Shown: in pieces, positions 13,011-47,774 of the stretch
Numbering within the stretch: position 1 is the stretch's first letter
Layout: every line of letters begins with the position of its first letter
NCBI RefSeq assembly: GCF_023684405.1
Contig: NZ_JAGSOI010000012.1
Location: forward strand, 1 to 47,774
Source: Methanococcoides seepicolus
Lineage (GTDB): Archaea; Halobacteriota; Methanosarcinia; Methanosarcinales; Methanosarcinaceae
Reading direction: 5' to 3'
DNA length: 47,774 nt
Translations under genes and position numbers: made by a program
The notes under the pieces: generated by a model
Told to the model about the DNA's origin: nothing
Databases searched by the model: none
The model's input: the letters and a program-made list of their open reading frames with translations, nothing else

Positions 13011-13058
13011 TGCGCCAACCGGGATTTGAACCCGGGTTTAGGGCTTGGAAGGCCCCAG
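13011..13058 (-). other. tRNA-Gly(UCC) 3'-half fragment, integration attachment site
   Basis: The minus strand carries the anticodon arm (GGGGC-CTTCCAA-GCCCT, anticodon TCC), a short variable loop, a perfect T-arm (CCGGG-TTCAAAT-CCCGG), the acceptor 3' strand TTGGCGC and discriminator A. The D-arm and the acceptor 5' strand are absent; the integrase gene begins instead. This is the usual footprint of integration into a tRNA gene: a duplicated 3' half at the end of the element far from the intact tRNA. Orientation puts the element to the right. Confidence 0.85.
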
Positions 13059-13098
13059 TCAACGCCATTTCGCAGCGCAGCGTATCGATTCCAACTCC

Positions 13099-13911
13099 AT
13101 GAAAAGTTGTGCAATATTTTACAATGATAATCGTGAGGATTTCACATCATGGATCCTTGCACGCATGTCTAAGGATACCGCCTTGAAGTATATCAGATAT
13201 ACAGATCGATATCTTACAGATCTACCACTTCAGGATCAATGCGACATCGTTCAACTTTCATCCACTGTCCAGACAGGATGGAACTGGTATGCTAAAGCAT
13301 TACGGAATTATATCCATTTTCTTGAGGATCGTAATATCCTCACGTCTGATCAGGCTATAGAATGGAAAAAACCGTTGTCCATGAAAAGCACCAACCCTGA
13401 CACATGGGTTCCAGATGTTGAAGATATACAGAATGTCCTCAAAGCTGCTCAAAATCCAACATATGTACACTTTATGCAGCTTTTGCTATACAGTGGTATA
13501 AGGACAACCGAAGCGATCCATATCGTCCATAATTTTGATGTTAAGCGTTTACATTTCAGCGGGGATGTTGCGTACTATGACATTGACTGGAACCGCGGGA
13601 ACAAACACGCAATAAAAGCATTTATGCCGTCTGACTTTGCAAGGACATTGCAGCGCACACCCGACATCAGTATCAATGCGGTTCAGAAATACTTCAGGGT
13701 CCGTGGGATCGGGCTGAAATATTGCAGGAATCTGTTCATAGATCAATGCGTCAAGGTAGGTATATCAGAATCCCTTATCCAGTATATGATCGGACATACA
13801 AACGGATCCGTGCTTATGACCAACTACCTAGAAAAGCTCAATAATTCCACGGTCGCATATGCTAAAGTATCCACCAATCTACAGGATATAATCAATACCC
13901 GTAAACAATGA
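13099..13911 (+). CDS. SSV/pNOB8-type archaeal tyrosine integrase
   Basis: This recombinase inserts and excises the element at the tRNA site. The catalytic set is visible: Arg in SGIRTTEA (about residue 135), the KYCR box (archaeal form of HxxR), His in MIGHTNG (about 233) and the nucleophile Tyr in MTNYLEK (about 243). From ATG 13099 the protein has 270 residues; the same frame is open back to TTG 13045 inside the tRNA fragment. A different frame read from ATG 13010 through the tRNA gives the familiar MRQPGFEPGFRAWK start of SSV-type integrases but ends just at 13099, so the old N-terminus may be frameshifted. No clear ribosome binding site is seen at 13099. Confidence 0.85.
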   Translation: MKSCAIFYNDNREDFTSWILARMSKDTALKYIRYTDRYLTDLPLQDQCDIVQLSSTVQTGWNWYAKALRNYIHFLEDRNILTSDQAIEWKKPLSMKSTNPDTWVPDVEDIQNVLKAAQNPTYVHFMQLLLYSGIRTTEAIHIVHNFDVKRLHFSGDVAYYDIDWNRGNKHAIKAFMPSDFARTLQRTPDISINAVQKYFRVRGIGLKYCRNLFIDQCVKVGISESLIQYMIGHTNGSVLMTNYLEKLNNSTVAYAKVSTNLQDIINTRKQ

Positions 13912-14000
13912 TAACATCAACATTGCGTGCAAGCATATGAGAACAGACCTACACTGTGGATAGTATCAGTCCATTTCTGTCCATGTGTAGGGTTATATTT

Positions 14001-14040
14001 TCCCCAAGCCCTAATCCCTGGTTCAATTCCCGTTTGGCTA
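14001..14040 (+). repeat. Degenerate inverted copy of the tRNA-Gly 3' half
   Basis: The plus strand reads CCAAGCCCTAA, CCC, GGTTCAA, TCCCG and TTGGC with spacing equal to that in the minus-strand fragment at 13011-13051. By hand alignment 31 of 40 positions agree. The T-stem now has mismatches, so it is not a working tRNA. Together the two copies form an inverted pair around the integrase gene. Confidence 0.55.
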
Positions 14041-14064
14041 TTTCTGGGCGTTATTCAATACATA

Positions 14065-14148
14065 TGCGACACATTGGACGTATCAAAATCATTGCGACAC
14101 ACGTTACACGTAATTATCCATGCGACACATGGAAAAATCATTATCACG
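14065..14148 (+). repeat. Three iteron-like direct repeats, 28-bp period
   Basis: TGCGACACA occurs at 14065, 14093 and 14121, exactly 28 bases apart, with looser similarity between the units. Regular short repeats next to an integrase can be arm-type recombinase sites or replication iterons. No gene overlaps them. Confidence 0.65.
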
Positions 14149-14149
14149 G

Positions 14150-14967
14150 ACATTATGGTAAAATGTCTTACCTGAAATAATAGAAATAATATCCAACCCT
14201 AATGTATGGTTGAATCTATAGGTATACTTAACCCGTACATGTATGGAATTGCATTGATTCGTGGATCTACAATAGTTGTCGATATGCCAATATCTAACGT
14301 TGTTTCCATTTCATATGGGTTAAAATATCCTATAGATGCTTTTTTGTCTATAGCATGGTAGCACATAACTTTTGGCAAAGTCGTATTTATTACACATTCG
14401 TCTCAAATATAATATTGGTTCTGGCATACGAATGCTTAATATTATCCATGCGTTGCAAAGCTAACATCAATTTTCGCACTGTTACTAGCCTGAAATTTAA
14501 CAAAAGTAAACGTAAAAAAATCTATAGATATATCGAATTTAATTCTTGTTCGTTGACAGAATTAACCATGTACCTGCAATAGTGGGAAGAAATATAAAAA
14601 ATGTTGTATGCAGAAAGTTGCAGAGGAAAAACAAGAACCTCTTGAGCAAAGGTGTAGTTACTTTAGAAAGCCACTTGGTCCAAGGGAACTCAAACACGAA
14701 CGAACTCTTTTTGTAAATTAATAAATATCTCAATTATTTTTCATTTAATCGATTACGAACCATATATAGAATATGATGAGGAAATTACATAACATATATA
14801 GAAATTGTAAAGAAAAAAATAGTAGCTCTTTTTTGTTAGTCAACTTAAGTAAGCATAATTGTATATGTGTCAAGTTTGTTTAATAACATCATTCGAAACT
14901 TATTTATGAAGGTTAGAATCATTAGACAAACAATCAAATTTAAAAGGAAAGTGATATTATTAATGGA
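14150..14967. other. Non-coding region, no convincing gene
   Basis: AT-rich region between the integrase and the next gene. A 75-codon plus-strand frame near 14355 has no start signals and an untypical composition. An AT-rich promoter-like stretch (cttatttatga near 14900) precedes the gene at 14968. Confidence 0.4.
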
Positions 14968-16380: not shown

Positions 16381-18006
16381 ATGATTAAAAAAATAAAAAT
16401 TGAAAATTTCAAATGTTTTAAAGGTGAATTTCAACTCGAATTAAATGAAGGATTGAATATAATAGTTGGAAACAATGAGGCTGGTAAATCCACAATTATT
16501 GAAGCCATTCATTTAGCATTAACTGGAATATTAAATGGAAAATATCTAAAAAATACACTCACCCAGTACTTATTTAATAATGAGATAATAGATGAATATA
16601 TAGCTAATTTGAATAATAATGGAAAAAGTGATCCACCTCATATACTAATTGAACTATATTTTGATAATGAGAGCATTCCAACATTTATGGGAAGTAGCAA
16701 TAGTAGTAGAGATATGAATGGGTGTGGACTCGCATTAAAAATAGAGTTTGATGAAGAATACAAGGAAGAATATGAAATCCTTGTTAAAAGTGATACCATC
16801 AAAACACTTCCTATTGAATATTATTCTATTAAGTGGTCAACGTTTGCTAGAAAAGACATAACGACTAAGAGTATACCTGTAAAATCAGCATTGATTGATT
16901 CATCTTCATGTGGTTCTCAAAACGGATCTGACATTTACCTATCACGAATTGTTCGACAATATTTAGATGCAGAAGAAATTGTGCAGATATCTCAGGCTCA
17001 TAGAAATATGAAAGAATACTTCATGGATGATCCTACTATCCAAAAAATAAATGAAAAGATAAAAGATAATATCAACATATCAGAAAAAACAGTAGAATTG
17101 TCTGTTGAACATTCATCTAAAAACTCTTGGGAAAATAGTTTGATGGCACATTTGGATGATGTTCCATTTCACTATGTCGGCAAAGGAGAACAATGTATTA
17201 TAAAGACAAAGCTAGCACTCCTCAATAAAAAAACAAAAGATGCCCCAGTTATTCTTTTAGAAGAACCCGAAAATCATCTTACACACACAAAACTAAATCA
17301 ATTGATTAATGATATTAAGAACGATTGCCAAGAAAAACAAATTATTATTTCTACACATAGTAGCTTCGTTGCCAACAAATTAGGTTTAGATCATCTTATT
17401 CTTTTAAACAACCAGAATCAAATAAAACTGAATGATCTAGAAAAATCTACAAAACAGTTTTTTGAAAAAATATCTGGTTATGACACTCTAAGAATGATAT
17501 TGTGTAAAAAAGCAATATTAGTAGAGGGAGATTCTGATGAATTAGTCGTTCAAAAAGCATATATGGATGCTAAAGAGGGCAAATTACCTATTGAAGATGA
17601 AATTGATGTTATTTCAGTCCGCAGCTTGGCTTTCAAACGGTTTTTGGAGATTGCGAAAATAATTAATCAACCCGTAGCGGTCATAACGGATAACGACGGT
17701 GATTACGAAACAAAAATCACAAACAAATACAAAAAATATGAGAGTATAGGGTGCATTTCAATTTTCGCAGATGAACGAAATGCATTAAGAACGCTTGAAC
17801 CTCAATTTGTTGAAGCCAACAATACCGATTTATCTGCATTATGCACAACAATTGGAATCAACAACATAGATTATGATACAGAAGAAAAAATCACCGAATA
17901 CATGAGCAAGAACAAGACGAAATGGGCACTTTGCGTCTTTGAAAGTAACAATAAACTAAATTATCCTAAATACATAATGGATGCTGTGAAGTGGTGTAAT
18001 GAGTGA
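16381..18006 (+). CDS. OLD-family ATPase/TOPRIM nuclease, GajA-like
   Basis: The 541-residue protein joins an SMC/ABC-type ATPase with a C-terminal TOPRIM nuclease. The P-loop GNNEAGKST is at residues 30-38, Walker B in VILLEEPENHL near 290, and the H-loop ISTHSSF after it. The TOPRIM domain starts with ILVEGDSDE (Glu near 382), continues with the acidic pair VITDNDGDY (near 437) and includes a late lysine (NKTKWAL). This is the order and size of GajA from Gabija anti-phage systems, and the helicase downstream overlaps it by eight bases. In Gabija, GajA nicks DNA when nucleotides fall during infection. Other OLD-helicase pairs exist, so the exact subtype is open. Confidence 0.85.
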   Translation: MIKKIKIENFKCFKGEFQLELNEGLNIIVGNNEAGKSTIIEAIHLALTGILNGKYLKNTLTQYLFNNEIIDEYIANLNNNGKSDPPHILIELYFDNESIPTFMGSSNSSRDMNGCGLALKIEFDEEYKEEYEILVKSDTIKTLPIEYYSIKWSTFARKDITTKSIPVKSALIDSSSCGSQNGSDIYLSRIVRQYLDAEEIVQISQAHRNMKEYFMDDPTIQKINEKIKDNINISEKTVELSVEHSSKNSWENSLMAHLDDVPFHYVGKGEQCIIKTKLALLNKKTKDAPVILLEEPENHLTHTKLNQLINDIKNDCQEKQIIISTHSSFVANKLGLDHLILLNNQNQIKLNDLEKSTKQFFEKISGYDTLRMILCKKAILVEGDSDELVVQKAYMDAKEGKLPIEDEIDVISVRSLAFKRFLEIAKIINQPVAVITDNDGDYETKITNKYKKYESIGCISIFADERNALRTLEPQFVEANNTDLSALCTTIGINNIDYDTEEKITEYMSKNKTKWALCVFESNNKLNYPKYIMDAVKWCNE

Positions 18007-19144
18007 AAACAAACTGATTATTGCCGCTGCAGGTTCTGGAAAAACGACTGAGATAATTAAAGAAGCACTAAAACAGCGCGATGGTAATATTCTTATAACT
18101 ACATATACGCAAGCAAATGAAGAAGCCATTCGCAGAAAAATTATTGAGATGGAAAAATGCATTCCAAAAAATATCACTGTTCAAACATGGTTTTCATTTT
18201 TAATTCAGGATGGCATTAAACCGTATCAAGATTGTCTATTCGTACATAAAATAAACGGAATGGTATTAGTTAATGAGGCATCAGGATATCGTTTTACAAA
18301 CAAGAATGGTCAAAAAATCTGTTATCCAGAGTCAAATTTTAACAAATACTATTTTACGGATGATTTTTGCATCTACTCTGATAAAATAGCTAAACTTGTA
18401 TTCAAACTTAATGAACAAAGCGAAAGTGCCGTAATAAATCGCTTAAGTAAAATTTATTCTCATATATTTGTAGATGAAGTCCAAGATTTAGCAGGATACG
18501 ATTTGGAATTTATAAAATTATTATTTAGTAGCCCCACAAATGTGATTTTAGTTGGAGACCCGCGTCAAGTAACATACCTTACTCATAATGAACAGACACA
18601 CAAACAATATTCATATGGCAGAATTAAAAATTTCATACTCGATAAATGTGAAAATGAGAAATGTGAAATTGATGAGATATCATTAAATATTTCACATCGA
18701 AATAATGGGCTTATATGTGATTTTTCATCAAGACTTTATCCAAATTACAATGAATGTAATTCAGACCAACTCACAGAAACAGGTCATGATGGTATTTTTT
18801 TAGTAAGAATGTGTGAACTTGATCAATATTTAGATACTTACAGACCTCTTCAACTTAGGTATAGTATCACAGAAAAAAGAGTAAGAAAAGACTATTCAGT
18901 CATGAATTTTGGTGAATCAAAGGGTTCTGAGTGTGATAGAGCAATTATTTACCCAACTATTGGTATGTTAAAATGGGTATTTAATAACAATACAAATTTA
19001 GCAGACAAAACGAAAGCTCAATTTTATGTCGCACTAACAAGAGCAAAATACAGTGTAGCTATTGTATGTCCTGATAAAGTTAGCAAATCTGTTGAGGGGA
19101 CACAACTTTATACAACTTTAAAATCACTATTCTCTTTTTTCTAA
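17999..19144 (+). CDS. Short UvrD-like helicase, GajB-like partner
   Basis: The superfamily 1 motifs are present: P-loop AAAGSGKTT at residues 9-17, motif Ia TYTQANEEA, motif II FVDEVQDLAG near 157, motif III VGDPRQVTY, motif IV/V around NISHRNNG and FGESKGSECDRAII, and motif VI FYVALTRAKYSV near 345. With 381 residues it is much shorter than typical UvrD and shorter than the type GajB (about 490), with reduced 1B/2B inserts. The ATG lies inside the end of the GajA-like gene, so they are translated together. It probably senses or processes DNA ends for the nuclease. Confidence 0.8.
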   Translation: MSENKLIIAAAGSGKTTEIIKEALKQRDGNILITTYTQANEEAIRRKIIEMEKCIPKNITVQTWFSFLIQDGIKPYQDCLFVHKINGMVLVNEASGYRFTNKNGQKICYPESNFNKYYFTDDFCIYSDKIAKLVFKLNEQSESAVINRLSKIYSHIFVDEVQDLAGYDLEFIKLLFSSPTNVILVGDPRQVTYLTHNEQTHKQYSYGRIKNFILDKCENEKCEIDEISLNISHRNNGLICDFSSRLYPNYNECNSDQLTETGHDGIFLVRMCELDQYLDTYRPLQLRYSITEKRVRKDYSVMNFGESKGSECDRAIIYPTIGMLKWVFNNNTNLADKTKAQFYVALTRAKYSVAIVCPDKVSKSVEGTQLYTTLKSLFSFF

Positions 19145-19342
19145 TTGATGGAGATTTTATCGATGAAAGTTTTATTAAACTTTTAGGTTGATTATAAAAT
19201 AAATAGGAACTGTTATAAGAAGGTATAATAACTATAGACTATGATTTTCGAGTATCTTCCTCAAATCAGCTTTTTAATATTAAGTTAACTTTTACACTTA
19301 TATCAATTTCAATTGCATTCATTTTTAAAAAATATGTACTAA

Positions 19343-20943
19343 CCCAAGTTTGACAGTTTTTACCTTTTTCTAAAGAGAATGTCTTCTCTTTTGTTCAATT
19401 TTTTACTTTTTTTGTCAGGATATCCTATTTGACAGTTTCAACAAATTCACTCAAATCGTCATGAAATACCCCATTTTGACCTCAAAACTAACCTATTTAT
19501 CGCATCAAAATTGGCATAAATGTACTTTTTTGATTTTCTCTGCCATGAATCCACGGTAACTGTCAAATTCGAAATGGATTTTTTGATGAATTTTGTTGAC
19601 GTATGTTTCAACTCTGCAAATTCATATCGCATCAGCGATATGAACATCTGTGCAATAAACCCAATGATAATCGCACCATAAATGCTATCATCCGTCCACA
19701 CTCTCAACGGTTTGATCTCTATCTCATTCTTCAGAGAATGAAATATCTTCTCAATGGAATCTTTTTTTCGATACGTTAGAAGTGCCTGTTTTAATGTCAA
19801 ATTCTTGCTTGATTTTAGGCAGAAAAATCCCTCTCTTCCAGTGATGAGCTTGTCTTCAAGAAGTTTAATCGCTTCATCTTCACTGAGTTCGATCAGTTTC
19901 GTCTGAAATGAATAGCTTACATCAATCAGTACATTATTGATCCTGAAACGTTTTGGGATCTTCTTTTTCCTGTCAATGATCTCTTGCAACTCTTTAGCCT
20001 CATGAATTTGTCTCAGAACTTTTCTCCCCTTTGACTCAAGTTGTTCCTTTTGAAGCTTCTCTGAGAAGTAAAAATAATTCACACTATTGGGTTTAGTGAT
20101 CTTAATTCCATAGATTCCATTCTCTGGATTAATTATCTCTGGACAATATTCATAAAAATCTGCGATGATTTTATCATCGCTCTTATTGAGCTTTTTTGCA
20201 GTTATATATTGCATTTCATCTGCTCTGATCAAAGCAGTATTCTCTATACTATTTGCACCTTTATCAAATACAACAAGAGAACCTTTTCTAAGTCTCCTAT
20301 TAACCTGATGATACGTCTTCTTAAAATGAGTCTGATCATTCAGGTTACCTTTCTCCACAGTAATCCCAAAAGGAAGGTTGATGGGATCAGCGAGTTCGCT
20401 GATCCCTATGGTGATTTGTTTCTTATCTGGCCTATGATCACGGCTGTAACCATATTTTCCAAGTGGAGCTTTATCTCCATGAAGAACGACACTGGTCCAA
20501 TCCATATTGATATTAGTATGTTCGAAATCATACCTCTTGAACAAGTTATCCTGGATATCTGAAATAATCTCATCTCGATTTGCACCAATTATTCCAAGTA
20601 CTCGATAGAGAGTTCTTTCGCTGAATTCATCAAGGTCAAAAAGATCAAGAACTTCATCACGATTTATCCATTCATATGCTTTTTTGATGCTAAAATTATC
20701 TGTGAGCTTATAGCTCACAAGAGCTTTCAATAGACTGTTGATGTTAATCCCGTTCTTTTTGTGTTTGCCAAAAACAGTGGAAAGATCAAGGATATCATAG
20801 AATTTTTCAACGGCCAGAATGGTTCCAATCGGAAAGGATATATTGGTGTTAGGAACTATTTCGTATGTTCTTAGTTTGTTTTGTTTTGTCACGATTCAAA
20901 TCAGCTAAGGACACTTATATTTATTTTGATTGTCAAACTTGGG
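19343..20943. mobile_element. IS1634-family insertion sequence, intact
   Basis: Both ends carry the inverted repeat CCCAAGTTTGACA (19343-19355 and, inverted, 20931-20943). The element is directly flanked by TACTAA on each side (19337-19342 and 20944-20949), a 6-bp target duplication that fits the family. The length is 1601 bp and one transposase gene fills it. The intact ends and target duplication suggest a recent insertion, next to the 3' end of the Gabija-like operon. Confidence 0.92.
19459..20892 (-). CDS. IS1634-family DDE transposase
   Basis: The 477-residue protein has the DDE triad in the order expected: Asp in NMDWTSVVLHG, Asp in VVFDKGANS, and Glu in IEKIFHSLKNE preceded by the YRKKDSI segment (a YREK-like motif). 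The N-terminal part is a helix-rich DNA-binding region, and a large beta-strand insertion lies between the second Asp and the Glu. The length is normal, with no frameshift or stop, so the copy is probably active. It catalyses cut-and-paste movement of the surrounding element. Confidence 0.92.
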   Translation of the reverse strand: MTKQNKLRTYEIVPNTNISFPIGTILAVEKFYDILDLSTVFGKHKKNGININSLLKALVSYKLTDNFSIKKAYEWINRDEVLDLFDLDEFSERTLYRVLGIIGANRDEIISDIQDNLFKRYDFEHTNINMDWTSVVLHGDKAPLGKYGYSRDHRPDKKQITIGISELADPINLPFGITVEKGNLNDQTHFKKTYHQVNRRLRKGSLVVFDKGANSIENTALIRADEMQYITAKKLNKSDDKIIADFYEYCPEIINPENGIYGIKITKPNSVNYFYFSEKLQKEQLESKGRKVLRQIHEAKELQEIIDRKKKIPKRFRINNVLIDVSYSFQTKLIELSEDEAIKLLEDKLITGREGFFCLKSSKNLTLKQALLTYRKKDSIEKIFHSLKNEIEIKPLRVWTDDSIYGAIIIGFIAQMFISLMRYEFAELKHTSTKFIKKSISNLTVTVDSWQRKSKKYIYANFDAINRLVLRSKWGIS

Positions 20944-21072
20944 TACTAAATAAAAAAAGATATAAATAATTTCAGCTTATTTTACATGTCCAACCACTTT
21001 TCTCATAGCAGGAGTATCAACTGTAAAGTGATAATTTTTTGAGAGCAATTGTGTTCAAATTCAACTTTTCAC

Positions 21073-23111: not shown

Positions 23112-23112
23112 T

Positions 23113-25038: not shown

Positions 25039-25071
25039 ATTTTGTCCTCAATTTCAACATATTCTATTCAT

Positions 25072-36382: not shown

Positions 36383-36391
36383 TAAAGAATC

Positions 36392-36676: not shown

Positions 36677-36694
36677 CTGAATGGGGAGATTATT

Positions 36695-37669: not shown

Positions 37670-37713
37670 GGTAATTTTTCGGGTATTTGAGAGTTTAATT
37701 GAATTAAACATGG

Positions 37714-38261: not shown

Positions 38262-38684
38262 TCACATGGTTTCCTCACAAGTGATGCCAAAATCTCCGCT
38301 TTCATTATATATCTCAAAAACGACCGTGTTTACACGATGAGGGACTGTACTATGATTGACCGAAATATTTTCAGATTCAAAGTAAAAATCCCACTCATTC
38401 GATGGTTTATTTCTACGTGGGTTTGAGGTTAATGGTACTATTTTTGGCTTTTCTATACGAATTACTTGATCAGCATCAAGTTGATAAAGTTCCCCCATGT
38501 ACAAATCATCATTTGAATCAATTATCTTAAGTGTTGCATTATGTGGATATTCATCATAATTTCTGATTATACAAAGTGGGGATATGCTATCGGTTGTGTC
38601 CGCGATATAATAATACAGATGGGGGAACAGGAAGTATGTCAATACCAATATGAGAATTATACCCAATCCTTTTATGTATCTCAT
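38262..38684 (-). CDS. Membrane-anchored extracytoplasmic protein, paralogue of 42547
   Basis: The 140-residue protein has one N-terminal membrane helix (residues of about 7-28) and a soluble domain outside the cell with several Asn-X-Ser/Thr sites. Its pattern DEYPHNATLKIIDSNDDLYM followed by LDADQVIRIEKP repeats that of the gene at 42547 (DEHPHDASIEI...GSIYVNKTFSLGAGERIRV), so the two are paralogues with an Ig-like beta domain. The C-terminal VNTVVFEIYNESG also matches. Function unknown. Confidence 0.65.
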   Translation of the reverse strand: MRYIKGLGIILILVLTYFLFPHLYYYIADTTDSISPLCIIRNYDEYPHNATLKIIDSNDDLYMGELYQLDADQVIRIEKPKIVPLTSNPRRNKPSNEWDFYFESENISVNHSTVPHRVNTVVFEIYNESGDFGITCEETM

Positions 38685-38882
38685 TTGTTATCTCCCTTAT
38701 ATTCACAAGCTTGTAAAATATATTGGGAGGTGTCACTACATAAAGACATTGGGTAATAATTCTATCAATTATGGATATTATTTGTGAAGTTTTAGTATAG
38801 AGTTAGTTAATATAGGCTCTGTAGAAATCCTCAACCAAGCTAAACACACAACCTTGACAGTCTTAGGTTGTGTCGATTCGAC
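38685..38882. other. Short spacer
   Basis: AT-rich spacer between the beta-domain protein and the truncated paralogue. No feature seen. Confidence 0.3.
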
Positions 38883-39032
38883 TCAAGAAACAGTTGAATC
38901 CATAGAATACCTCATTAAAACCGTGGAAGGGTTTTCGTCCAGCAAAGTAATGGAATACTTGGGATTCTTGATAGCTTCTTTAACCTTTTCCAAATATTCT
39001 GCTTTTTCATTTCCAGATAGTTCTATTTTCAT
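38883..39032 (-). pseudogene. Truncated copy of the multi-pass family found at 40785 and 42059
   Basis: The 49-residue frame starts at ATG 39032, directly after the stop of the gene upstream. It reads MKIELSGNEKAEYLEKVKEA followed by IKNPKYSI, the same soluble N-terminus as the genes at 41333 (MELKQSADKKTEYLDRIKAA) and 42541. After KYSI the membrane part is replaced by unrelated residues and a stop. It is a partial duplicate that keeps only the cytoplasmic head. Confidence 0.75.
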
Positions 39033-39794
39033 TTATGTAGATTCTCCAATTATCTTATTGTAATGTCTGATATACAAGATACCCAGGATAGGCATCAATA
39101 GGAAAAATCCCATATATGATATGTTAAAGAATATTTTAACCCAGAAAAATTTAATCATATTCTCATCGATTAATCCCAGACCCATTTGAACTACCTGTAG
39201 AATCACTGGGATAATAGCACAAAGCAATGGCAACAACACAATCAATTTCATTTCCTTTGTAATCTTCATCCTATCATAGCCTACGGAAGGCAGCAAGTAA
39301 ATAAACAGGGTGATGGGAAGAATGATGACATATATTATGATCTGAGGTAATGTGTTATAAGGAAATCCCATATCAAATATTTCACGAGTTATAGGATATA
39401 TTGCAATTTCCACGAGTCTCTGAATTGGAAGCAGCAAGTTATAAATCAACGAATCATGGGGAAATGTAGTTGTCACGATATGAGTATGTCCAATTATAGC
39501 TATTATAGTATGGAACATACCAATAATTAGCAAAGGTATATAGTACAAAACCTTTCTAATATCTCTCCTGTTCTTAACAATATTCTGCCCAATGAAGCTT
39601 ATCGGTACTAAAAACAAGATAAATAATCCCAGTGTCATTACCAATGCATATATATCTAGATCAGACTGGCTTTTTGTCATTATCATTCCAAATATTGTTA
39701 AAATAATAACAGCTACCCATATATGCACTATAAAGAAAAGAAGTGCATCTAACGGTATTTTCGTTCTAACTTTTAAGACAAGATTATCAATCAA
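39033..39794 (-). CDS. Multi-pass membrane protein, unknown function
   Basis: The 253-residue protein has about six membrane helices, starting near residues 15, 47, 83, 155, 185 and 225. The start is TTG 39794, supported by AGGGGGAAT upstream; no ATG is available nearby. There is no recognised transport or enzyme motif. It lies in a minus-strand operon in which stops and starts nearly touch. Confidence 0.65.
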   Translation of the reverse strand: MIDNLVLKVRTKIPLDALLFFIVHIWVAVIILTIFGMIMTKSQSDLDIYALVMTLGLFILFLVPISFIGQNIVKNRRDIRKVLYYIPLLIIGMFHTIIAIIGHTHIVTTTFPHDSLIYNLLLPIQRLVEIAIYPITREIFDMGFPYNTLPQIIIYVIILPITLFIYLLPSVGYDRMKITKEMKLIVLLPLLCAIIPVILQVVQMGLGLIDENMIKFFWVKIFFNISYMGFFLLMPILGILYIRHYNKIIGEST

Positions 39795-39811
39795 ACGTTA
39801 TTCCCCCTGAT

Positions 39812-40351
39812 TCATTTTTGAGATCTTCGTAACACGAAACCCACGCACGCAAAAACAAGTACTAACCAATAGCTTCCAATAAACGGAATCGTATTATCAG
39901 ATCTTGCCGTTGGTACAATCTCACTTTTGTTGGATTTCCCCATTGATTCAAGTTCACTTATTATTTCACCTCTATCGGCAGTAGGATGCTTCCCTGGTTC
40001 ACCGATCGTTACTTTGAATCTGTTTTCAGCTACGTTTATGTCCTGAAGCATCAGTATTACCGATTCACCATTGTAAAATCGAGGTTCATTATTGTTGATA
40101 TACATAGAACCCCTTTCCGTAATTACTTCAATTTCATTCGACGGAAGTGGTCCCATCAGCCATTCGTCTACTTTTATTGTTACTACTGAGTATTTGAAAT
40201 GTTCTTGGACATTGGTTACATTCCCAACAGCGATTCGGTCAGAATCATTGATCTGATATGAGATCATGCCTGCTTCTTGAGTAAATAATGCATGTGCATT
40301 TGTTGCAGCAATCAAAAGTAAAAAGATCGTGAGAATGAATATTTTTTGCAT
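39812..40351 (-). CDS. Secreted, C-terminally anchored surface protein
   Basis: ATG 40351 is preferred over GTG 40360, because AGGTG lies six bases upstream of it. A signal peptide (FILTIFLLLIAATNAHA) is followed by a beta-rich domain with SDRIAVGNVTNV and VVTIKVDEWL, and the C-terminus is a membrane helix ending in RRSQK. The tail has the shape of an archaeal sorting signal, but PFIGS replaces PGF. The start of the mature part (IAVGxVxxV, VxVxxxL.G) resembles small metal-dependent or binding beta-domains seen in archaea. Function unknown. Confidence 0.65.
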   Translation of the reverse strand: MQKIFILTIFLLLIAATNAHALFTQEAGMISYQINDSDRIAVGNVTNVQEHFKYSVVTIKVDEWLMGPLPSNEIEVITERGSMYINNNEPRFYNGESVILMLQDINVAENRFKVTIGEPGKHPTADRGEIISELESMGKSNKSEIVPTARSDNTIPFIGSYWLVLVFACVGFVLRRSQK

Positions 40352-40418
40352 TTTTGACACCTATATTGGCACATATAAGTTTATCTGAATATGAAATTTT
40401 CAATGAACATGATACAGT

Positions 40419-40784
40419 TCAATTATCCACCATTATCAGTATCCCACCAAGCACAATCAAAGATCCTATTGGGATCCATAAAAATCCCATAAAAATGAAT
40501 CCAGCTACACCAGATGCAATAATCACAAGTACGGAATTGCAAATATCTTCCGACAACTTGTACGCTGATATTATCCCAATAATTGCAAGTGCGGTCGATG
40601 AAAATGTATTGATTGCCAATACGGTGATCGGATCAGAGATCCATAATATTTGTTCTACGGAATATCCAATGAACATACCATTGGTAGGTATTATTCCTGT
40701 AAGTGTACCGAATAGCCCTAAACTTATACAAATACCTGAAATTCCACCAATTGCTACTAAGTACCTTCCCCTATTTTCCATCAT
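40419..40784 (-). CDS. Four-helix small membrane protein
   Basis: The 121-residue protein has four membrane helices in a row and a Gly-rich last helix (PIGSLIVLGGILIMV), reminiscent of DUF4064-type small membrane proteins. Its ATG follows the stop codon of the upstream gene without a gap (TAA-ATG-ATG), so translation is coupled. No function can be given. Confidence 0.65.
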   Translation of the reverse strand: MMENRGRYLVAIGGISGICISLGLFGTLTGIIPTNGMFIGYSVEQILWISDPITVLAINTFSSTALAIIGIISAYKLSEDICNSVLVIIASGVAGFIFMGFLWIPIGSLIVLGGILIMVDN

Positions 40785-41333
40785 TTAAATACCCCATATT
40801 AAGTTGGTATATTTGATAAAAAATGCTACAGCTTGTATTATGAAAAGAAGTAATGCGATAGCCAAATATTTTCTTTTTCTAAATGCAACCAAATATCCCA
40901 TAAATACGTGGGCAAATGAGAATGGTAAAAATTCAATGATATTACTGAATGTTGTGGACCATACAATAAGTCTACCAAATTGTTCAAATTGGGAAGTAAG
41001 AATTGTATGTATGGGTGGACCATAAAATATCATAAGTGGATACATCAATAATCCCAATGCTGCAGATGAATATTTATTTCCAGTGTAGTAGCCATAACAA
41101 GCCAATGCGATAAATGGAAATATGAATATATCGAACAACAAAAATGGGCGAAAAATATAGATCAGAGGTCCTATTGTTTTTGACAGTAAACCAATTTCAA
41201 AAAGCACCCATATTAATGCAAATATGAATGGCAATCCCAAGATGACAAATATGGAGTACTTTGGATTCTCGATAGCAGCTTTGATCCGATCTAAATATTC
41301 AGTTTTCTTATCTGCGGATTGCTTTAGTTCCAT
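40785..41333 (-). CDS. Multi-pass membrane protein, paralogue of 42059
   Basis: The 182-residue protein opens with a soluble head (MELKQSADKKTEYLDRIKAA) and the segment ENPKYSIFVILGLPFIFAL that leads into about five helices. YGYYTGNKYSSAALGLLMYP and FRKRKYLAIALLLFI are shared, with changes, with the gene at 42059, and the head also with the truncated copy at 38883. These three form a local family. The function is unknown; the basic loop before the last helix suggests the inside of the cell. Confidence 0.7.
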   Translation of the reverse strand: MELKQSADKKTEYLDRIKAAIENPKYSIFVILGLPFIFALIWVLFEIGLLSKTIGPLIYIFRPFLLFDIFIFPFIALACYGYYTGNKYSSAALGLLMYPLMIFYGPPIHTILTSQFEQFGRLIVWSTTFSNIIEFLPFSFAHVFMGYLVAFRKRKYLAIALLLFIIQAVAFFIKYTNLIWGI

Positions 41334-41438
41334 TTGTGTAGAACCCCCATTCTTTGGTTAAATAAAACACAGGAAAGATGTTTGTTCACTTTATCATTCT
41401 TCTTACTGATCTTTGATCTCAATTCTTAGAATTTGTTA

Positions 41439-41708
41439 TCATTTCACAAAAGATTTCAATTCATTCATCTTATGTACATATCCCAGTAGAACAATAAATG
41501 TAGCTCCACCGATTGCCATTAACAAAAGTATACGGTTAATCATCATTTCCCATGTATAAATCTCATGAATATATGAATTGAAAATCAATACGAAATATCC
41601 ACAAAAGATTCCAGTGATAACCATCAAAGCAACCACATGATAATCAAGCTTCTTCAACATCCTTTCTGTAATCATTATTAACATCCATGAAAGCAATTCT
41701 CGCATCAT
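41439..41708 (-). CDS. Small membrane protein
   Basis: The 89-residue frame has two clear membrane helices (VVALMVITGIFCGYFVLIF and ILLLMAIGGATFIVLLGYV) and short charged ends. The true start may be an inner ATG near MLKKLDYH, which would give a more usual N-terminus. No family is recognised. Confidence 0.55.
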   Translation of the reverse strand: MMRELLSWMLIMITERMLKKLDYHVVALMVITGIFCGYFVLIFNSYIHEIYTWEMMINRILLLMAIGGATFIVLLGYVHKMNELKSFVK

Positions 41709-41830
41709 TCAATTCTTTTATTATTATCATATATCTCAAACACAGACAAGATTATTACCAATTAGAGCTATTCATTATATATTTAATTGCAATCCCATCT
41801 TATATATTTATTATGTTACATTAACTCATT

Positions 41831-42007
41831 TCATTTATTTTCTATACTTTGTTTTTTCACAAATCGATATTGAACCAATTAATATCACAGATATCAATGT
41901 AAAGTATAGCAACAATGACTGAAATTATCATTAAACCACCATTGATAAGCATGATAAATTGCTATTATAAGAGGCACTAAACGGTATATTTTTCTAAATA
42001 GTTTCAT
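41831..42007 (-). pseudogene. Frameshifted copy of the 59-aa membrane protein at 45836
   Basis: The start (MKLFRKIYRLVPLIIAIYHA) and NDNFS agree with the intact copy, but one base is lost after AATTTCAGT and a stop follows in the new frame. A second loss of two bases further on restores the frame for the last residues. The DNA of the two copies is alike across the whole gene and its flanks. This is a clear decayed duplicate. Confidence 0.75.
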
Positions 42008-42058
42008 GATGAGTTTCCCAAAATTTCCCTATATTTTCCTTCATTTTAATCCATTGTT

Positions 42059-42541
42059 TTAATCAATGTGACTGACAATTTCCATGAGCTGCAGCACAAA
42101 GATAAGCAATGCAATTGCCAAATATGGCTTTTTCTTGAATGTAAATAATAATCCGATTAGTGAATGGGCAAGTGAATACTTCCAAAACTCATCAATAATC
42201 ATAAATATGTATGACCATTCAAAATATCTCCAAAGTTGGTCGAATTGGAAATTAAGAATTTCATCAATAGGTTTGAAATAAAGGAGCATAAGTGGAATTA
42301 TCAATAGTCCAAATATTGCAGAAGATAGTTTGTTTCCAGTGTAGTAGGCATAGCAAGCCAATGCAACAAGTGGCCCAACAAGTACAATGACCATACCAAA
42401 TAGTCCAAATAATACCCCTAATAACGCAAGTATGAATGGTATTCCCAATATGATGAATATGGAGTATTTTGGATCCTTGATAGCATCTTTGATCCGATCT
42501 AAATATTCGGTATTTTCATTTGCATGTTCTTTTAGTTCCAT
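42059..42541 (-). CDS. Multi-pass membrane protein, paralogue of 40785
   Basis: ATG 42541 follows GAGG within the end of the upstream gene. The 160-residue protein keeps the family head (ANENTEYLDRIKDAIKDPKY) and SIFIILGIPFILAL, then about five helices with YAYYTGNKLSSAIFGLL and FKKKPYLAIALLIF. The stretch between helices differs in length from the paralogue at 40785. It is translationally linked to the beta-domain protein before it, so the two may form a complex. Function unknown. Confidence 0.7.
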   Translation of the reverse strand: MELKEHANENTEYLDRIKDAIKDPKYSIFIILGIPFILALLGVLFGLFGMVIVLVGPLVALACYAYYTGNKLSSAIFGLLIIPLMLLYFKPIDEILNFQFDQLWRYFEWSYIFMIIDEFWKYSLAHSLIGLLFTFKKKPYLAIALLIFVLQLMEIVSHID

Positions 42542-42546
42542 TGTCC

Positions 42547-42981
42547 TCAATCCCAGCTTAAAACATGAACATCAACAACAAATTCACCGCTATCATTGGT
42601 GAGTGTGTAAGTAACCGTATTTCCCCAACTGGATTCAGTGTGAAATGAAACTGAATGATTTTCGGATTTGAAATGATATCCCCATTTAGGTTTGATCATT
42701 TCAGACTTCAGTTTTGGAGGTGTATTCCATTCCAGAGATTGTCTGCCTACCCTGATGCGTTCCCCTGCTCCGAGACTAAATGTTTTATTTACATATATGC
42801 TACCATCGTGTCTCGTAATCTCAATACTTGCATCGTGTGGATGTTCATCTTCGTTGACGATTGTGAAAATTGGTTCACTTGGTCCCGCAAGTAACAATGG
42901 GATTGCATACAATACGATGAATATAAACACTGCTACAATTGCGAATAGAGTAATCTGATTTGGCATTTGATTTTTTGGCAT
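42547..42981 (-). CDS. Membrane-anchored extracytoplasmic protein, paralogue of 38262
   Basis: An N-terminal membrane helix (FAIVAVFIFIVLYAIPLLL) is followed by a beta-rich outer domain of about 105 residues with EHPHDASIEITRHDG and a closing VTYTLTNDSGEFVV. The same layout occurs at 38262. The small Ig-like domain could bind a protein or a sugar. It is followed by the multi-pass paralogue, and the 38262 gene also lies near a copy of that family, so the pair seems to have been duplicated as a unit. Confidence 0.7.
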   Translation of the reverse strand: MPKNQMPNQITLFAIVAVFIFIVLYAIPLLLAGPSEPIFTIVNEDEHPHDASIEITRHDGSIYVNKTFSLGAGERIRVGRQSLEWNTPPKLKSEMIKPKWGYHFKSENHSVSFHTESSWGNTVTYTLTNDSGEFVVDVHVLSWD

Positions 42982-43043
42982 GATACCTCATCTCCCTAAT
43001 TTGTGTACTACGCATTAGTTCCTGAAAATGCCCATTTAGTGAT

Positions 43044-44321
43044 TCACGAGTTCAATCGTTTTTGCTTTCTAAGTGCGAATAAAAGTGCCATTACAAGTGA
43101 AGGGATGGTGAAGCCTGGGGCGTTAGGAGTCTCAACGTCATCCTCTATGAGATCTTCACATGGTGCTTCATCTTCTACGGGCATCTCATCAAATTCGAAT
43201 TTTACTGGTATGTTATCGATACCATTCTGAACAGCTTTCTGGTCAATTGTCTCATAAATTTCATCCATCAAAGAACCATTGATCTCAGATCCTTCCAGGA
43301 ATGTTACTGAGATATAACCATCATAACCTTGCCCGTAAGAAATAACAGGACCATCTGGATACATGTATTTCTCCATATCATTTCTTATATTCCTCATACT
43401 CTCAAGTTCATCAAGCCAACTTCGTCTTTCATCTTCTGTATAAAAATCCATTTCTTTTCCGTAGAATGTTATAACTTTATAGCTACTGTTTTGTCTTTTA
43501 ATATTATCAATTGCTGATCTTGCAAGAATACGTACCCTATTTGACCTATCGTCCAGAGTTTTTGTAAGTGGTTCAATTGCTCTTTTGTCATCGAGTTCTC
43601 CAAGTGCCATTGCAGCATTTGATCTTACATTCTCATCTTCATCATTGAGTAGTTCAATTACAGGTTCAATTGCTCGCGAATCACCTGTTCCACCCAGAGC
43701 TCTAGCTGCATATGCCCGTACAAGTGGATTATTATCTTCTAAGACATCGATAAGGGGTTCCACGGATGGTTCTCCGATATTGCTTAAAGCTTCAGCAGCA
43801 TCTACACCACCTGTATATCCAAGCATTTGAATCAATGGCTCTACTGCTCTTTCATCTCCGATTGCCCCAAGAATTCTTATTGTGGCCAAGTGGATGGGGA
43901 AAATTTCATTTTGATCATTCATGGCTCCAACCAGAGATTCTACTGCTGGCTCATTTATATTCCCAAGGGCAATTTCCGCAGCACGTTGGACTTCATTGTT
44001 TTCGTCACCCAGCAATTCAATTAGAGGTTGTATTGCTCTTTCATTTCCAATTTTCCCAAGAGCAGATGCTGAATTTCCTCGAATTTTAGGGTTTTTGTCA
44101 TTTAGTGCCTGGATTAGAGGATCTACTGCAGGATCTCCAATTTCAACAAGGTTTTTCACAGCATCTAGTCTAATAAACACATCCTGGTGACCCATATTCT
44201 GTATCAATGATTCCATCATTATTTCATCTATAACAGTTTCATCAGAACTAGCACATGTAGAAACTGTGCCGAATATCAGAAGAATGGCTGATACAAAAAT
44301 ACATATAATTTTTACATACAT
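43044..44321 (-). CDS. Secreted HEAT-repeat surface protein with PGF-CTERM-like tail
   Basis: ATG 44321 gives a signal peptide ending near STCA. Seven or so HEAT (PBS-lyase type) repeats follow, each of about 31 residues with the pattern AxxPLIxxLxDxxxxVRxxAAxALGxI (residues of about 30-260). The C-terminal part is a separate domain (YKVITFYGKEMDFYTEDE) with a beta-rich part and an acidic linker; the end is APGF, a hydrophobic helix and RKQKR, an archaeosortase-type anchor. HEAT arrays of this kind bind proteins. It probably displays a binding platform outside the cell. No ribosome binding site is seen, so the transcript may be leaderless. Confidence 0.85.
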   Translation of the reverse strand: MYVKIICIFVSAILLIFGTVSTCASSDETVIDEIMMESLIQNMGHQDVFIRLDAVKNLVEIGDPAVDPLIQALNDKNPKIRGNSASALGKIGNERAIQPLIELLGDENNEVQRAAEIALGNINEPAVESLVGAMNDQNEIFPIHLATIRILGAIGDERAVEPLIQMLGYTGGVDAAEALSNIGEPSVEPLIDVLEDNNPLVRAYAARALGGTGDSRAIEPVIELLNDEDENVRSNAAMALGELDDKRAIEPLTKTLDDRSNRVRILARSAIDNIKRQNSSYKVITFYGKEMDFYTEDERRSWLDELESMRNIRNDMEKYMYPDGPVISYGQGYDGYISVTFLEGSEINGSLMDEIYETIDQKAVQNGIDNIPVKFEFDEMPVEDEAPCEDLIEDDVETPNAPGFTIPSLVMALLFALRKQKRLNS

Positions 44322-44522
44322 GGTTAAAAATATGTGCAATATTATTAAAAATAATTGGTATGTTCTGTGATTAAAACAAAAATTACCAATTCATCCTGAT
44401 GTTTATGGATTAAATTGAAGATGTTTGCTCAATTTCCTAGTATAGATCTCGCCTCATCCCCAGCCTACAACACTGATTAGTCGTGAAAAATAAAAAAAGT
44501 AGGAATCAGAGGATGACTTCCC

Positions 44523-45614
44523 TCATTCCATTGATTCAGCGATTTTTATGAGTTCATCTGAGTTCACTGGACCGCTTATTATCATTCTGGCATTTTCTAT
44601 GTTCCATGAAAGGGATGCATAATCGTCACCAAATGGCGAAGAAACAACCTGGCCTTCATGCCCATTGATATCCACAATCTCACCCCTATTTTCCATTATT
44701 GTAGGAGATTCTTCCCCATAGAAAATTTCACTGATGCGGAGGGCTTCGGAATCTTTTGAATAGGTTATGGAAACAGTTTCCTGCACTTCGCCAAAAAATT
44801 GGGTATTATTATTAACTGTTGCAACTTCAAATTCATAGCCTTCAGTAATGTAGGAAGGAACCAACACATCATATTCAGACAACTCCTGTGCTTCATCAAG
44901 AGTTACTTCCTCGGGAATTAGGTCCTCAAGGCCATCAAGAGTGACCACTTCCGCCCCTTCGGGAATCTCAAACTCAAATTCCGAATCAGGAATACCTGTG
45001 TTGACTTCAAAATCCCTGTATTCTGTCACAATCATGAGATTGCCTTCATTATCATACATTTCGAACTTGAGAGGCATCCAGGTTTCCCTGTCAATCCACG
45101 TTTTCATGTCAACAACTAAGCCAGACGTTGAATTCTCATTTGGTTTTATGGATATTACATAACTGCCTCTGCCGTCAACGGTATCTATGCCATCTAAAGT
45201 GTAATCGTTATCATCCAGGAAATCCTGCATTATACCTGTATAATCCATTTGGCTGGCATCAAAATCTCCCATGGAACCCAGATTCATCGCCATCACAGAA
45301 TTCTGATCGGGATTATATGTCCACATTGTTTTTCCGTTGGAAACCATAATCATACCTTCACCCTGTTCGGCTTGTATTATGGTGGTTTTCGTCTTATCAG
45401 GCATCTTTTGGGACATTGAAGAAATTGATGTGATTTCCTGCTCACCCAAATACGTCGTCATGTAAATGGTGGCAGAATAGTCCTCAATGTTTGCCTGCTT
45501 TTGCTGATATTCCTCAGCAATCTGTGCGGCTGTGAGCTCTTCACCAATACATCCTGCTGAAAAGAGCATGAGTGATGTTATCAGTAAAATAAGTGTTAAT
45601 TTTTGTGTATTCAT
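44523..45614 (-). CDS. LolA/RseB-like lipoprotein
   Basis: ATG 45614 follows GGAG. The signal peptide ends in a lipobox, FSAGC (Cys near residue 22), so the protein should be lipid-anchored outside. The N-terminal half (AEEYQQKQANIEDYSATIYM to LVVDMKTWIDRETWMPLKFEMYD) matches the outer-membrane lipoprotein sorting/RseB-type fold, common in methanogens. The C-terminal half (YDVLVPSYITEGYEFEVATV, VSITYSKD, IVDINGHEGQV) resembles the DUF4367 domain. The two together are a known archaeal arrangement. It probably binds a lipid or protein outside the cell. Confidence 0.85.
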   Translation of the reverse strand: MNTQKLTLILLITSLMLFSAGCIGEELTAAQIAEEYQQKQANIEDYSATIYMTTYLGEQEITSISSMSQKMPDKTKTTIIQAEQGEGMIMVSNGKTMWTYNPDQNSVMAMNLGSMGDFDASQMDYTGIMQDFLDDNDYTLDGIDTVDGRGSYVISIKPNENSTSGLVVDMKTWIDRETWMPLKFEMYDNEGNLMIVTEYRDFEVNTGIPDSEFEFEIPEGAEVVTLDGLEDLIPEEVTLDEAQELSEYDVLVPSYITEGYEFEVATVNNNTQFFGEVQETVSITYSKDSEALRISEIFYGEESPTIMENRGEIVDINGHEGQVVSSPFGDDYASLSWNIENARMIISGPVNSDELIKIAESME

Positions 45615-45835
45615 AGTTCCACTCCATAAGTTATGGAATAAAACCATAGTCAGGTATAAAAATTTAACGATTTTGTAAAAAATAGATGGAGTGCTACTAA
45701 TTTTTCATGGACTGTAAACCTATTCCCATTTTTCTTCGGTAAGACTTAGGAAATTTCCAGTTGTACTAGGTATGTTGACCGATGTCCGAACCTAGGACAG
45801 AAAACAATATCTTGCACCCATATGATACGTTCGAT

Positions 45836-46015
45836 TCATTTATTTTCTACACTTCGCTTTTTTACAAATCGATCCATTGGACCAATTAATATCACAGATA
45901 TCAATGTAAGGTATAGCAACAATGAACTGAAATTATCATTAAACCACCCTTGATAAGCATTATATAGTGCCAGTATGAGTGGTATTGTACGATATATTTT
46001 TCTAAATATTTCCAT
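45836..46015 (-). CDS. 59-aa membrane protein, intact copy
   Basis: ATG 46015 opens a frame that reads MEIFRKIYRTIPLILALYNA, then YQGWFNDNFS, a membrane helix (LLLYLTLISVILIG) and a basic tail (RFVKKRSVENK). A second copy of the gene and its flanks, about 4 kb away at 41831, is frameshifted. Conservation of the frame in this copy supports a real gene. It follows the 83-residue membrane protein by 16 bases. Function unknown. Confidence 0.65.
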   Translation of the reverse strand: MEIFRKIYRTIPLILALYNAYQGWFNDNFSSLLLYLTLISVILIGPMDRFVKKRSVENK

Positions 46016-46031
46016 GATGAGTTCCTCAATG

Positions 46032-46283
46032 TTACTTATTGACTTTTCTAAATAATACTAGAATAAAAGCTATCAAAACAATTATTGCCAACGCATAAAG
46101 GACACTGCCAATGATCTGTCCTGTAAGCATAAAGAACATGCCATATTTATTTGGATAAAAATACTCCATGAAATGGTATAAAATTGCAATAAGCAATAAC
46201 AACAATCCAAATGATGCACTTATATAATTGTGATAAAGATGTCTTGCGATATTTTGTATTAAATCCTCAACTTCTTTCAGCAT
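46032..46283 (-). CDS. Small membrane protein with two helices
   Basis: The 83-residue protein has two membrane helices (FGLLLLLIAILYHFM and IGSVLYALAIIVLIAFILVLF) and a charged N-terminus. Its ATG overlaps the stop of the restored reading frame of the gene before it (GTATGCTGA), which indicates translational coupling. No family is recognised. Confidence 0.6.
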   Translation of the reverse strand: MLKEVEDLIQNIARHLYHNYISASFGLLLLLIAILYHFMEYFYPNKYGMFFMLTGQIIGSVLYALAIIVLIAFILVLFRKVNK

Positions 46284-46569
46284 ACTTGTCCCTCATCCCC
46301 AATATGTGATCTGACTAGATAGTAATACAGCACCGCACCTATGAAATTCAGAAAAATTAGAACGAGCGACCAGATCAGTTTATCATTATCCCCTTGCTGG
46401 GAAAATCATCAGTGTTCCTCTGAAGGCAGTCACATAACATGAATATCCAGAAAACAATAACTATTGCGATAATTCCCCATAATAGTTGACCTATGTGATA
46501 TGTAAAAACAAGTATGGCAAAGAATACCATAAGTCTGACAATTGCCCATTTTGATTTTATTTTGCTCAC
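46277..46569 (-). pseudogene. PLDc_N-type membrane protein with a frameshift in a G run
   Basis: From GTG 46569 (ribosome binding site GGGGG) the frame reads a first helix, then FWIFMLCDCLQRNTDDFPSKG and stops soon after. In another frame the sequence continues NDKLIWSLVLIFLNFIGAVL and YYYLV, and ends at 46277. Joined, the two halves are a textbook phospholipase D nuclease N-terminal (PLDc_N) domain, a two-helix protein of about 97 residues. Adding one G to the GGGG at about 46388 restores the frame. It is a pseudogene, a sequencing error, or a programmed frameshift. Confidence 0.75.
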
Positions 46570-46685
46570 GCTTATGCCCCCATATTGTTAGCTTAATACA
46601 TCTTAGTCTCGTATTCAGTTTTAGTCAATATCTCATCACAAAATAGGACCACATTTGTTGTTCCGTAAATGGAATGCTTCTGAGT

Positions 46686-47117
46686 TCAATCAACAAATCC
46701 CCTTATAAAAAATACTACCCAGAACAGAAAACAGCATATCGCAAGAATATTGTACTGTATTTCTTTTATTGATGCAAAATAGCCTTCCAAGCCACCGAGG
46801 ATAACCAGAATTCCAAAATAAGTAAGAATCTCCATACTGATAAACTCTCTCGATATAATTGAACTCGAATAGAAATAAAGGAAAAGTCCGACTACAGGTA
46901 GCACTCCAACTATAACGGATCCGATCTTATCCCTCGTAATCAATCCATACATGATAGGGGCTAGGGCTAAGAGAAACAGGCTAAAAACCTCAATCAGAAA
47001 TGTCAATGAGCCACCAATTATTGTATCTAATGTATGTCCAAAATGGATTGCTCCAGTTGTAATAACGATGATTACTGAAGATATGATGATTGAGAGAATT
47101 AATTTTTTTATGTTCAT
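46686..47117 (-). CDS. Multi-pass membrane protein, unknown
   Basis: The 143-residue protein starts at ATG 47117 after GGGTGATAA and has about five helices, among them IISSVIIVITTGAIHFG, FLIEVFSLFLLALAPIMYG and LAICCFLFWVVFFI. There is no conserved polar motif that would suggest a transporter. It belongs to the row of minus-strand membrane genes. Confidence 0.6.
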   Translation of the reverse strand: MNIKKLILSIIISSVIIVITTGAIHFGHTLDTIIGGSLTFLIEVFSLFLLALAPIMYGLITRDKIGSVIVGVLPVVGLFLYFYSSSIISREFISMEILTYFGILVILGGLEGYFASIKEIQYNILAICCFLFWVVFFIRGFVD

Positions 47118-47165
47118 TTATCACCCTTCACAATACTTGAAAACATAAATTTAGCAAAGTCCCCC

Positions 47166-47351
47166 TTACTGAAGTCCCAATTTAACAATAGTCCAGTAGG
47201 TAAGAAACCCGTAAAGAAAAGACCCCACAAGTGATATTTCGATTAGCAGATTGTCATGTACTACATGTTTAGCCACAACTCCAGAGAGTACGATTATAGC
47301 AATAACCGTAAAAATTGGAATTACAAGTCTTAATGTTTTTTGTCTTTCCAT
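47166..47351 (-). CDS. Very small membrane protein
   Basis: The 61-residue frame starts at ATG 47351 with GGTAATAAC upstream. It has two helices (LVIPIFTVIAIIVLSGVVA and IEISLVGSFLYGFLTYWTIV) separated by a short polar loop. It is placed regularly between its neighbours on the same strand, which supports coding. Confidence 0.55.
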   Translation of the reverse strand: MERQKTLRLVIPIFTVIAIIVLSGVVAKHVVHDNLLIEISLVGSFLYGFLTYWTIVKLGLQ

Positions 47352-47419
47352 GTTATTACCAAAGAATACAAATTATCACCATTCTCAAAAATTCTCAATC
47401 AGTATTTTTAAGAATCATC

Positions 47420-47773
47420 TTAATTGACCGAGTAAAACAATTTTGCTACTTCTTCACTGGGTATAAGATATCCATTTACCTCATCTAACTTAGGATTCGA
47501 TGGATCTACGCCATATTTACTGATGTAATCGGTTTCTGCCTTCTCAATAATACTAATCATTTCAGCTTCAGTAATTATGATGTCATAATCCTTGCCATGT
47601 TCCATCCCTTCAGGGGGTTTGCCGTCTTCTGTAACAAGCACTTGGCTGTCACTTGAAAGTATGGTCCCTTCAAGGAAATTGGGTAATTCATTATTGGCGA
47701 ATTTTATATCATTTTCTGTAATGTTATATTTTCTATACATATCCTGTAATTCTTCGGAGGTATAATTTGTGTC
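47420..47773 (-). CDS. Hypothetical protein, 5' end outside the window
   Basis: The frame stays open to the right window edge (DTNYTSEELQDMYRKYNITE at the start), so the gene begins outside. The visible 117 residues are soluble and acidic, with EGTILSSDSQVLVTEDG, EAEMISIIEKAETDYISKYG and a C-terminal GYLIPSEEVAKLFYSVN. It may be the end of a secreted or peripheral protein. No family is recognised. Confidence 0.6.
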   Translation of the reverse strand, partial: DTNYTSEELQDMYRKYNITENDIKFANNELPNFLEGTILSSDSQVLVTEDGKPPEGMEHGKDYDIIITEAEMISIIEKAETDYISKYGVDPSNPKLDEVNGYLIPSEEVAKLFYSVN

Positions 47774-47774
47774 T

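Follow-up and report, generated by a model that had tools for sequence, protein, structure and literature searches.

Integrative element at a tRNA-Gly(UCC) gene

We analyzed a 47,774-base stretch of DNA (the window), which is the whole of contig C24 in a draft Methanococcoides genome (G000; 2.8 Mb, 158 contigs). Together with contig C124 of the same assembly, it holds a tRNA-Gly(UCC) gene in two pieces, an integrase gene in two pieces, and foreign DNA carrying defense genes. We read these as the two ends of an SSV1-type integrative element that entered the tRNA gene and gave it a new, intron-bearing 3′ half. Related genomes are referred to by code (G094, G096, G097, and G099), with G097 being a Methanococcoides metagenome-assembled genome. 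The features at the insertion site were as follows:

10768..12873, minus strand: chromosomal flank with tRNA-Leu (10768-10855), a MATE transporter (11093-12445), and a MarR-type regulator (12442-12873), in the order found next to tRNA-Gly(UCC) in relatives
13001..13061, minus strand: attachment site attR, comprising the host tRNA-Gly(UCC) 3′ half that the element displaced and its flank, 61/61 identical to the empty site of G097
13062..13098, minus strand: element DNA beside the core, resembling a degenerate tRNA 5′ half and included in the integrase frame once the ends are joined
13062..13911, plus strand: Int(C), the C-terminal part of a split SSV1-type integrase with R...KxxR...H...Y, identified by PF16795, SSV1 structures as best match, alignment, and the joined frame
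C124:6351-6721: Int(N), the N-terminal part of the split integrase, identified by the joined frame

A preliminary description of this DNA had placed a minus-strand tRNA-Gly 3′-half fragment in front of an integrase. This was borne out, with the fragment reaching 13061 and the integrase domain (PF16795, 13099-13911, E=1.6e-27) following directly after it. ARAGORN called a tRNA-Gly(UCC) of 72 nucleotides (nt) with a defective D-arm at 13008-13079 on the minus strand. The host-derived portion ends at 13061, and 13062-13079 is element DNA, though inside this call. Against RF00005, the tRNA piece scored a borderline 29 bits, equal to the cut-off, and Rfam at gathering thresholds gave no match within 12800-47774.

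The sole other tRNA-Gly(UCC) of the genome lies at C124:6639-6742, on the minus strand. The two loci share an identical core of 20 base pairs (bp), TGACTGGGGCCTTCCAAGCC, at window 13042-13061 and C124:6702-6721. At both ends, the sequence outside the core is host and the sequence inside is foreign. The element lies to the right of the fragment, as had been proposed. On C124, the tRNA links foreign DNA to a host 5′ side with UvrB, which all relatives examined share, and the synteny break falls exactly at the tRNA. The preliminary description had called for a second tRNA-Gly(UCC) of this orientation; one was found at a synteny break, a hybrid with a 32-nt intron and an element-supplied 3′ half.

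For the 5′ half of the C124 tRNA and the sequence upstream of it, nine other Methanococcoides genomes show 90-96% identity, the match ending at the anticodon; among relatives, only G096 matches the region throughout. In those nine genomes, tRNA-Gly(UCC) is uninterrupted and intronless and represents an empty site. Relatives’ tRNA-Gly(UCC) adjoins UvrB and, in most, is located before MarR, MATE, and tRNA-Leu. Most also have a two-gene block with a photolyase-like gene after the tRNA, and in G099, MarR comes directly after it. In the genome under study, this neighborhood is divided, with UvrB and the tRNA 5′ half on C124 and the 3′ half, MarR, MATE, and tRNA-Leu in the window.

Two further features of the flank were observed. 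Window 12442-13008 lacks the photolyase-like gene and its neighbor, which most relatives have between tRNA-Gly(UCC) and MarR. The window MarR is also just 52-62% identical to that of relatives, although MATE is 73-97% identical.

Split integrase

When C124 was joined to the window at the core, the result was one open frame of 405 amino acids (aa) when counted from the second Met of an adjacent pair, or 406 from the first. Because the joined ends restore this single frame, we classify the integrase as an SSV1-type (“suicidal”) enzyme split by integration. The joined integrase is evidence, independent of synteny, that C24 and C124 bear the two ends of one kind of element. Joining the ends of the G094 element likewise gave 406 aa, with one TAG read through as pyrrolysine, and those of G099 gave 387 aa; in G097, the joined frame is open and its N-terminal part looks decayed. 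Int(N) is present in only four genomes of the order. That of C124 is 51% identical to Int(N) of G094, and the right-end DNA is homologous as well.

The motif KYCR (KxxR) and the flanking R, H, and Y are conserved in an alignment to SSV1 integrase structures and five relatives, and the closest solved structures to Int(C) are those of the SSV1 integrase. The R...KxxR...Y motif is one mark of the SSV1 type; the other, an element attachment site (attP) within the integrase gene that is split on integration, is seen here in the joined ends and predicted for the circular form. With a split integrase of the SSV1 type, the element probably cannot leave its site without a full-length enzyme from elsewhere, and loss of the intact enzyme would make the insertion stable.

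The integrases at L043 (G097:C9:71261-72064) and L044 (G094:C1:2105074-2105874) share an in-frame TAG, aligned at one position (ARxQ-O-DTA) that is Lys in the window protein. This codon is probably a conserved pyrrolysine in a mobile-element integrase. Broken relatives of the window integrase also occur near tRNA-Val(UAC) in two genomes (L071/L137, equal to G000:C84:763-1511, and L050).

The tRNA intron

In the hybrid tRNA of C124, a 32-nt intron (AGCCTATTCCCTTCATTGGGGTGGCTGAAGAC) separates a first exon of 37 nt from a second of 35 nt. In the folded precursor, the anticodon stem is followed by a 4-bp helix flanked by two bulges, the first of 3 nt, and this bulge-helix-bulge geometry places intron cleavage at 37/38. 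The spliced hybrid and the native tRNA fold with equal stability (-30.9 vs. -30.5 kcal/mol), and splicing of the intron in vivo is predicted. The delivery of an intron by the element had been overlooked in the earlier account.

The intron and everything 3′ of the core are on the element side of the crossover. Among 186 genomes of the order, the intron and new 3′ half were found in just G000 and G096; the intron of G096 has another hairpin loop and an identical fold. The tRNA gene was contiguous and intronless in 28 other genomes checked. On its opposite strand, the intron DNA encodes the integrase linker. The right-end DNA of G094 and G097 aligns gap-free through the intron and 3′ exon, both of which are decayed there. 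This alignment argues that the 32-nt spacer is an ancient segment of the integrase linker rather than a late insertion. An earlier idea, in which no tRNA 3′ half had ever been present in the elements of G094 and G097, was replaced in light of the alignment by decay of a collinear one.

We propose the following course of events. The attachment site of the presumed circular form falls within the integrase gene. When this site recombined with the host gene at the 20-bp core, which corresponds to the anticodon stem-loop, the integrase was split, leaving Int(N) on the C124 side and Int(C) on the window side. The host retained its promoter and tRNA 5′ half, while the new 3′ half came from the element, bringing the 32-nt intron at 37/38. 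An intronless gene thereby acquired an intron, and its transcript should still yield a mature tRNA once spliced. The displaced host 3′ half stayed behind as the fragment at 13001-13061.

The intron may protect the site. A tentative and rather doubtful extension is that it is a selected device: 32 nt in the anticodon region would destroy the natural host attachment site (attB), barring later elements at tRNA-Gly(UCC), and the host would retain a working tRNA only while keeping the element’s end.

Weighing the explanations

The insertion and both its ends, the split integrase, the element-side intron, and the cargo can be read from the DNA. As a whole, they are best explained by an SSV1-type integrative element with a split integrase, located in tRNA-Gly(UCC) and installing an intron-bearing 3′ half; we place the probability of this reading at roughly 0.9. 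Some observations count against it. The estimated contamination of the draft genome is 4.36%, C24 and C124 are unjoined in the assembly with the middle of the element missing, and the C-terminal part of the integrase was not found in G096, though its right end is the same.

An intact, pNOB8-type integrase of 270 aa starting from the ATG at 13099, in an element that excises freely, was our working idea, and Int(C) does have its own ATG, retains the catalytic residues, and lies close beside the core. We dropped it once joining both ends gave one frame, and now consider it improbable. pNOB8-type enzymes have a YxxR motif and a gene that stays intact after integration, whereas the motif here is the KxxR of the SSV1 type and the gene is split; the conserved N-terminal part also runs in frame across the core in several elements. 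The SSV/pNOB8-type integrase of the preliminary description is corrected to a split SSV1-type gene of which the window holds the C-terminal piece only. Slightly less probable again is a provirus. SSV1-type integrases are mostly viral, and the best matches in phage collections were archaeal viruses, yet the integrase had no relative in viral contigs, and no viral structural protein was found among the proteins scanned, with many genes at 38-47 kb unassigned and the middle missing. Because no such structural gene appeared among the scanned proteins, the element is probably an integrative plasmid.

Alternatively, the host gene could have acquired the intron once the element was in place, or through ordinary transposition of a tRNA intron, and the element would merely be adjacent. 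Gain of archaeal tRNA introns by other routes is known, and other host tRNA matches are 109-110 nt, long enough to contain introns. However, the intron and a strongly altered 3′ exon travel together, wholly on the element side of the core. A segment of equal length, decayed but aligning without gaps, occurs at the right ends of the G094 and G097 elements, and the integrase frame passes through the intron segment. We therefore regard an origin apart from the element as very unlikely, the least probable of these alternatives.

Extent and cargo of the element

The element measures at least 41 kb, made up of 13062-47774 (34.7 kb) and C124:1-6721 (6.7 kb) with an unsequenced gap between. Position 47774 is the end of the contig and not the edge of the element; the contig breaks there because the window turns identical to contig C120, with complete identity over about the last 127 bases. 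C120 holds a mostly 91-97% copy of much of window 39-47.8 kb (38950-47774) in the same order; it could not be shown to be a direct continuation of the window. It may represent a related element or a chromosomal source. Beyond the integrase, the window part of the element contains:

14004..14038, plus strand: degenerate copy, in inverted orientation, of the tRNA-Gly(UCC) 3′ half, following the integrase and with 89% complementarity across 35 nt
14065..14128, plus strand: TGCGACAC, repeated three times at 28-bp spacing, against four copies in G097
16381..19144, plus strand: Gabija genes, GajA (16381-18006; PADLOC, E=6.8e-217) and GajB (17999-19144; PADLOC, E=6.3e-136), both full length
19337..20948, minus strand: insertion sequence with a DDE transposase (19459-20892; PF01609), with 84-91% copies elsewhere in the genus
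21951..27720, minus strand: operon of an MmeI-type restriction-methylation enzyme (25072-27720), a DEAD-type helicase (23113-25038), and a GIY-YIG (T5orf172) protein (21951-23120)
28448..30985: putative origin, with orc1/cdc6 (29499-30701, plus strand), repeats of ~100 bp (29107-29234 and 30857-30985), and an inverted copy (28448-28575)
31328..34704, plus strand: UvrD helicase-Cas4-type nuclease fusion (31328-34063) and TrmB-like helix-turn-helix protein (34078-34704)
35852..37369, plus strand: weak partial tyrosine recombinase (35852-36382) and serine resolvase (36695-37369)
37400..47774, minus strand: unassigned cargo, including a HEAT-repeat protein (43044-44339) and a LolA-like protein (44523-45647)

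The Gabija system is complete by PADLOC models, a full-length GajA (ATPase-TOPRIM) adjoining GajB (UvrD-like helicase), and Walker and TOPRIM motifs are visible in its sequence; defense activity is predicted. The best plasmid match of Orc1 was a Methanohalobium plasmid Orc1 (34% identical). The TrmB-like gene and the serine resolvase are common to the window and the G094 element (77% and 75% identity, respectively). All of the cargo named in the preliminary description was present: orc1 with flanking repeats, two nuclease-helicase defense candidates (GajA/GajB, and the helicase and GIY-YIG protein with the MmeI-type enzyme), UvrD-Cas4, and the resolvase. Its picture of a self-replicating, tRNA-targeted defense carrier held for the tRNA insertion and the defense cargo; self-replication, presumably in a circular form, is a suggestion drawn from orc1 and the repeats.

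The inverted tRNA-Gly 3′ half downstream of the integrase occurs in three elements (window 14004-14038; G094, L044:1359-1398; and G097, in L043). It fits the target tRNA in G000 and G094 and is UCC-like in G097, whose element occupies tRNA-Gly(CCC). An invertible integrase, flipping via the inverted tRNA halves (13014-13048 and 14004-14038), was set aside since the downstream copy is without the 5′ side of the core, and is further disfavored by the mismatch between the G097 copy and the tRNA hosting that element. The TGCGACAC repeats are possible binding sites. Beside the insertion sequence, window 21044-21412 (and L119:193-426) is a repeat with many dispersed copies in Methanococcoides genomes.

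Comparison with related elements and known systems

Methanococcoides elements of the same integrase clade in G094 (28 kb), G097 (6 kb), and G099 (21 kb) also have an integrase split by integration at tRNA-Gly, but they target tRNA-Gly(CCC), unlike the window element. The G099 element has an intronless 3′ half, and those of G094 and G097 have a decayed one. Their replication and cargo genes differ, with a DUF927 protein in G099 and MoxR, vWA, D12-methylase, and HerA-like genes in G094. The G097 element carries an intact 5′ half of tRNA-Gly(CCC). G094 yielded a single tRNA-Gly(CCC), a hybrid whose D-arm is shortened (G094:C1:2077557 and 2105912; L163, L148), and this isoacceptor may be defective there.

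The adjacent, near full-length GajA and GajB resemble known Gabija systems, with the difference that these are archaeal, lie on an integrative element, and have an activity predicted from sequence. The element also provides an example of Gabija and restriction genes being carried in methanogens.

The suicidal SSV1 integrase architecture has been described previously (PMC8371274, PMC3293823). Like SSV1-type elements (PMC8371274), the window element has KxxR, a tRNA target with exchange in the anticodon region, and an attP in an integrase gene that is split on integration. Unlike them, its integrase linker overlaps a tRNA 3′ exon and a predicted spliceable intron on the other strand, an unusual overlap in which integrase codons, recombination site, tRNA exon, and tRNA intron share one set of bases. 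Its cargo of defense genes and Orc1 also differs from the small virus genomes of the SSV1 type.

Why archaeal tRNA genes have introns is a long-standing question, and one proposal is that mobile elements deliver them via attachment sites. In the model of Sugahara et al. (2012, PMC3293823), an intron-containing attP recombines with an intronless attB, so that the host tRNA gains an intron, which may keep out later elements. Their case was a Caldiarchaeum tRNA-Thr with a displaced tRNA fragment (PMC3293823), and the attP-borne intron is cited as a proposal in a 2021 review (PMC8371274). We found no later clean case in the titles and abstracts of the open-access literature, subscription journals being outside this scope.

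As far as its sequence allows, the present locus is a clean case of the 2012 model: an intronless attB, as seen in relatives, and an intron-bearing attP appear to have recombined, with the intron on the element side of the crossover, an intron gained by the host tRNA, and a fragment displaced. The published case was built from pieces of metagenomic DNA and what is left of a recombinase: metagenomic fosmids with an intron at 24/25, a 5′ tRNA fragment, and a merely putative recombinase resembling the pNOB8 type. The locus described here differs in having a canonical 37/38 intron, a displaced 3′ half, ends tied together by a split SSV1-type integrase, and nine empty sites, all in a mesophilic methanogen genus. 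Because a genus with cultured species now offers both junctions, the nine empty sites, the enzyme, and a canonical intron able to fold, the proposal becomes testable.

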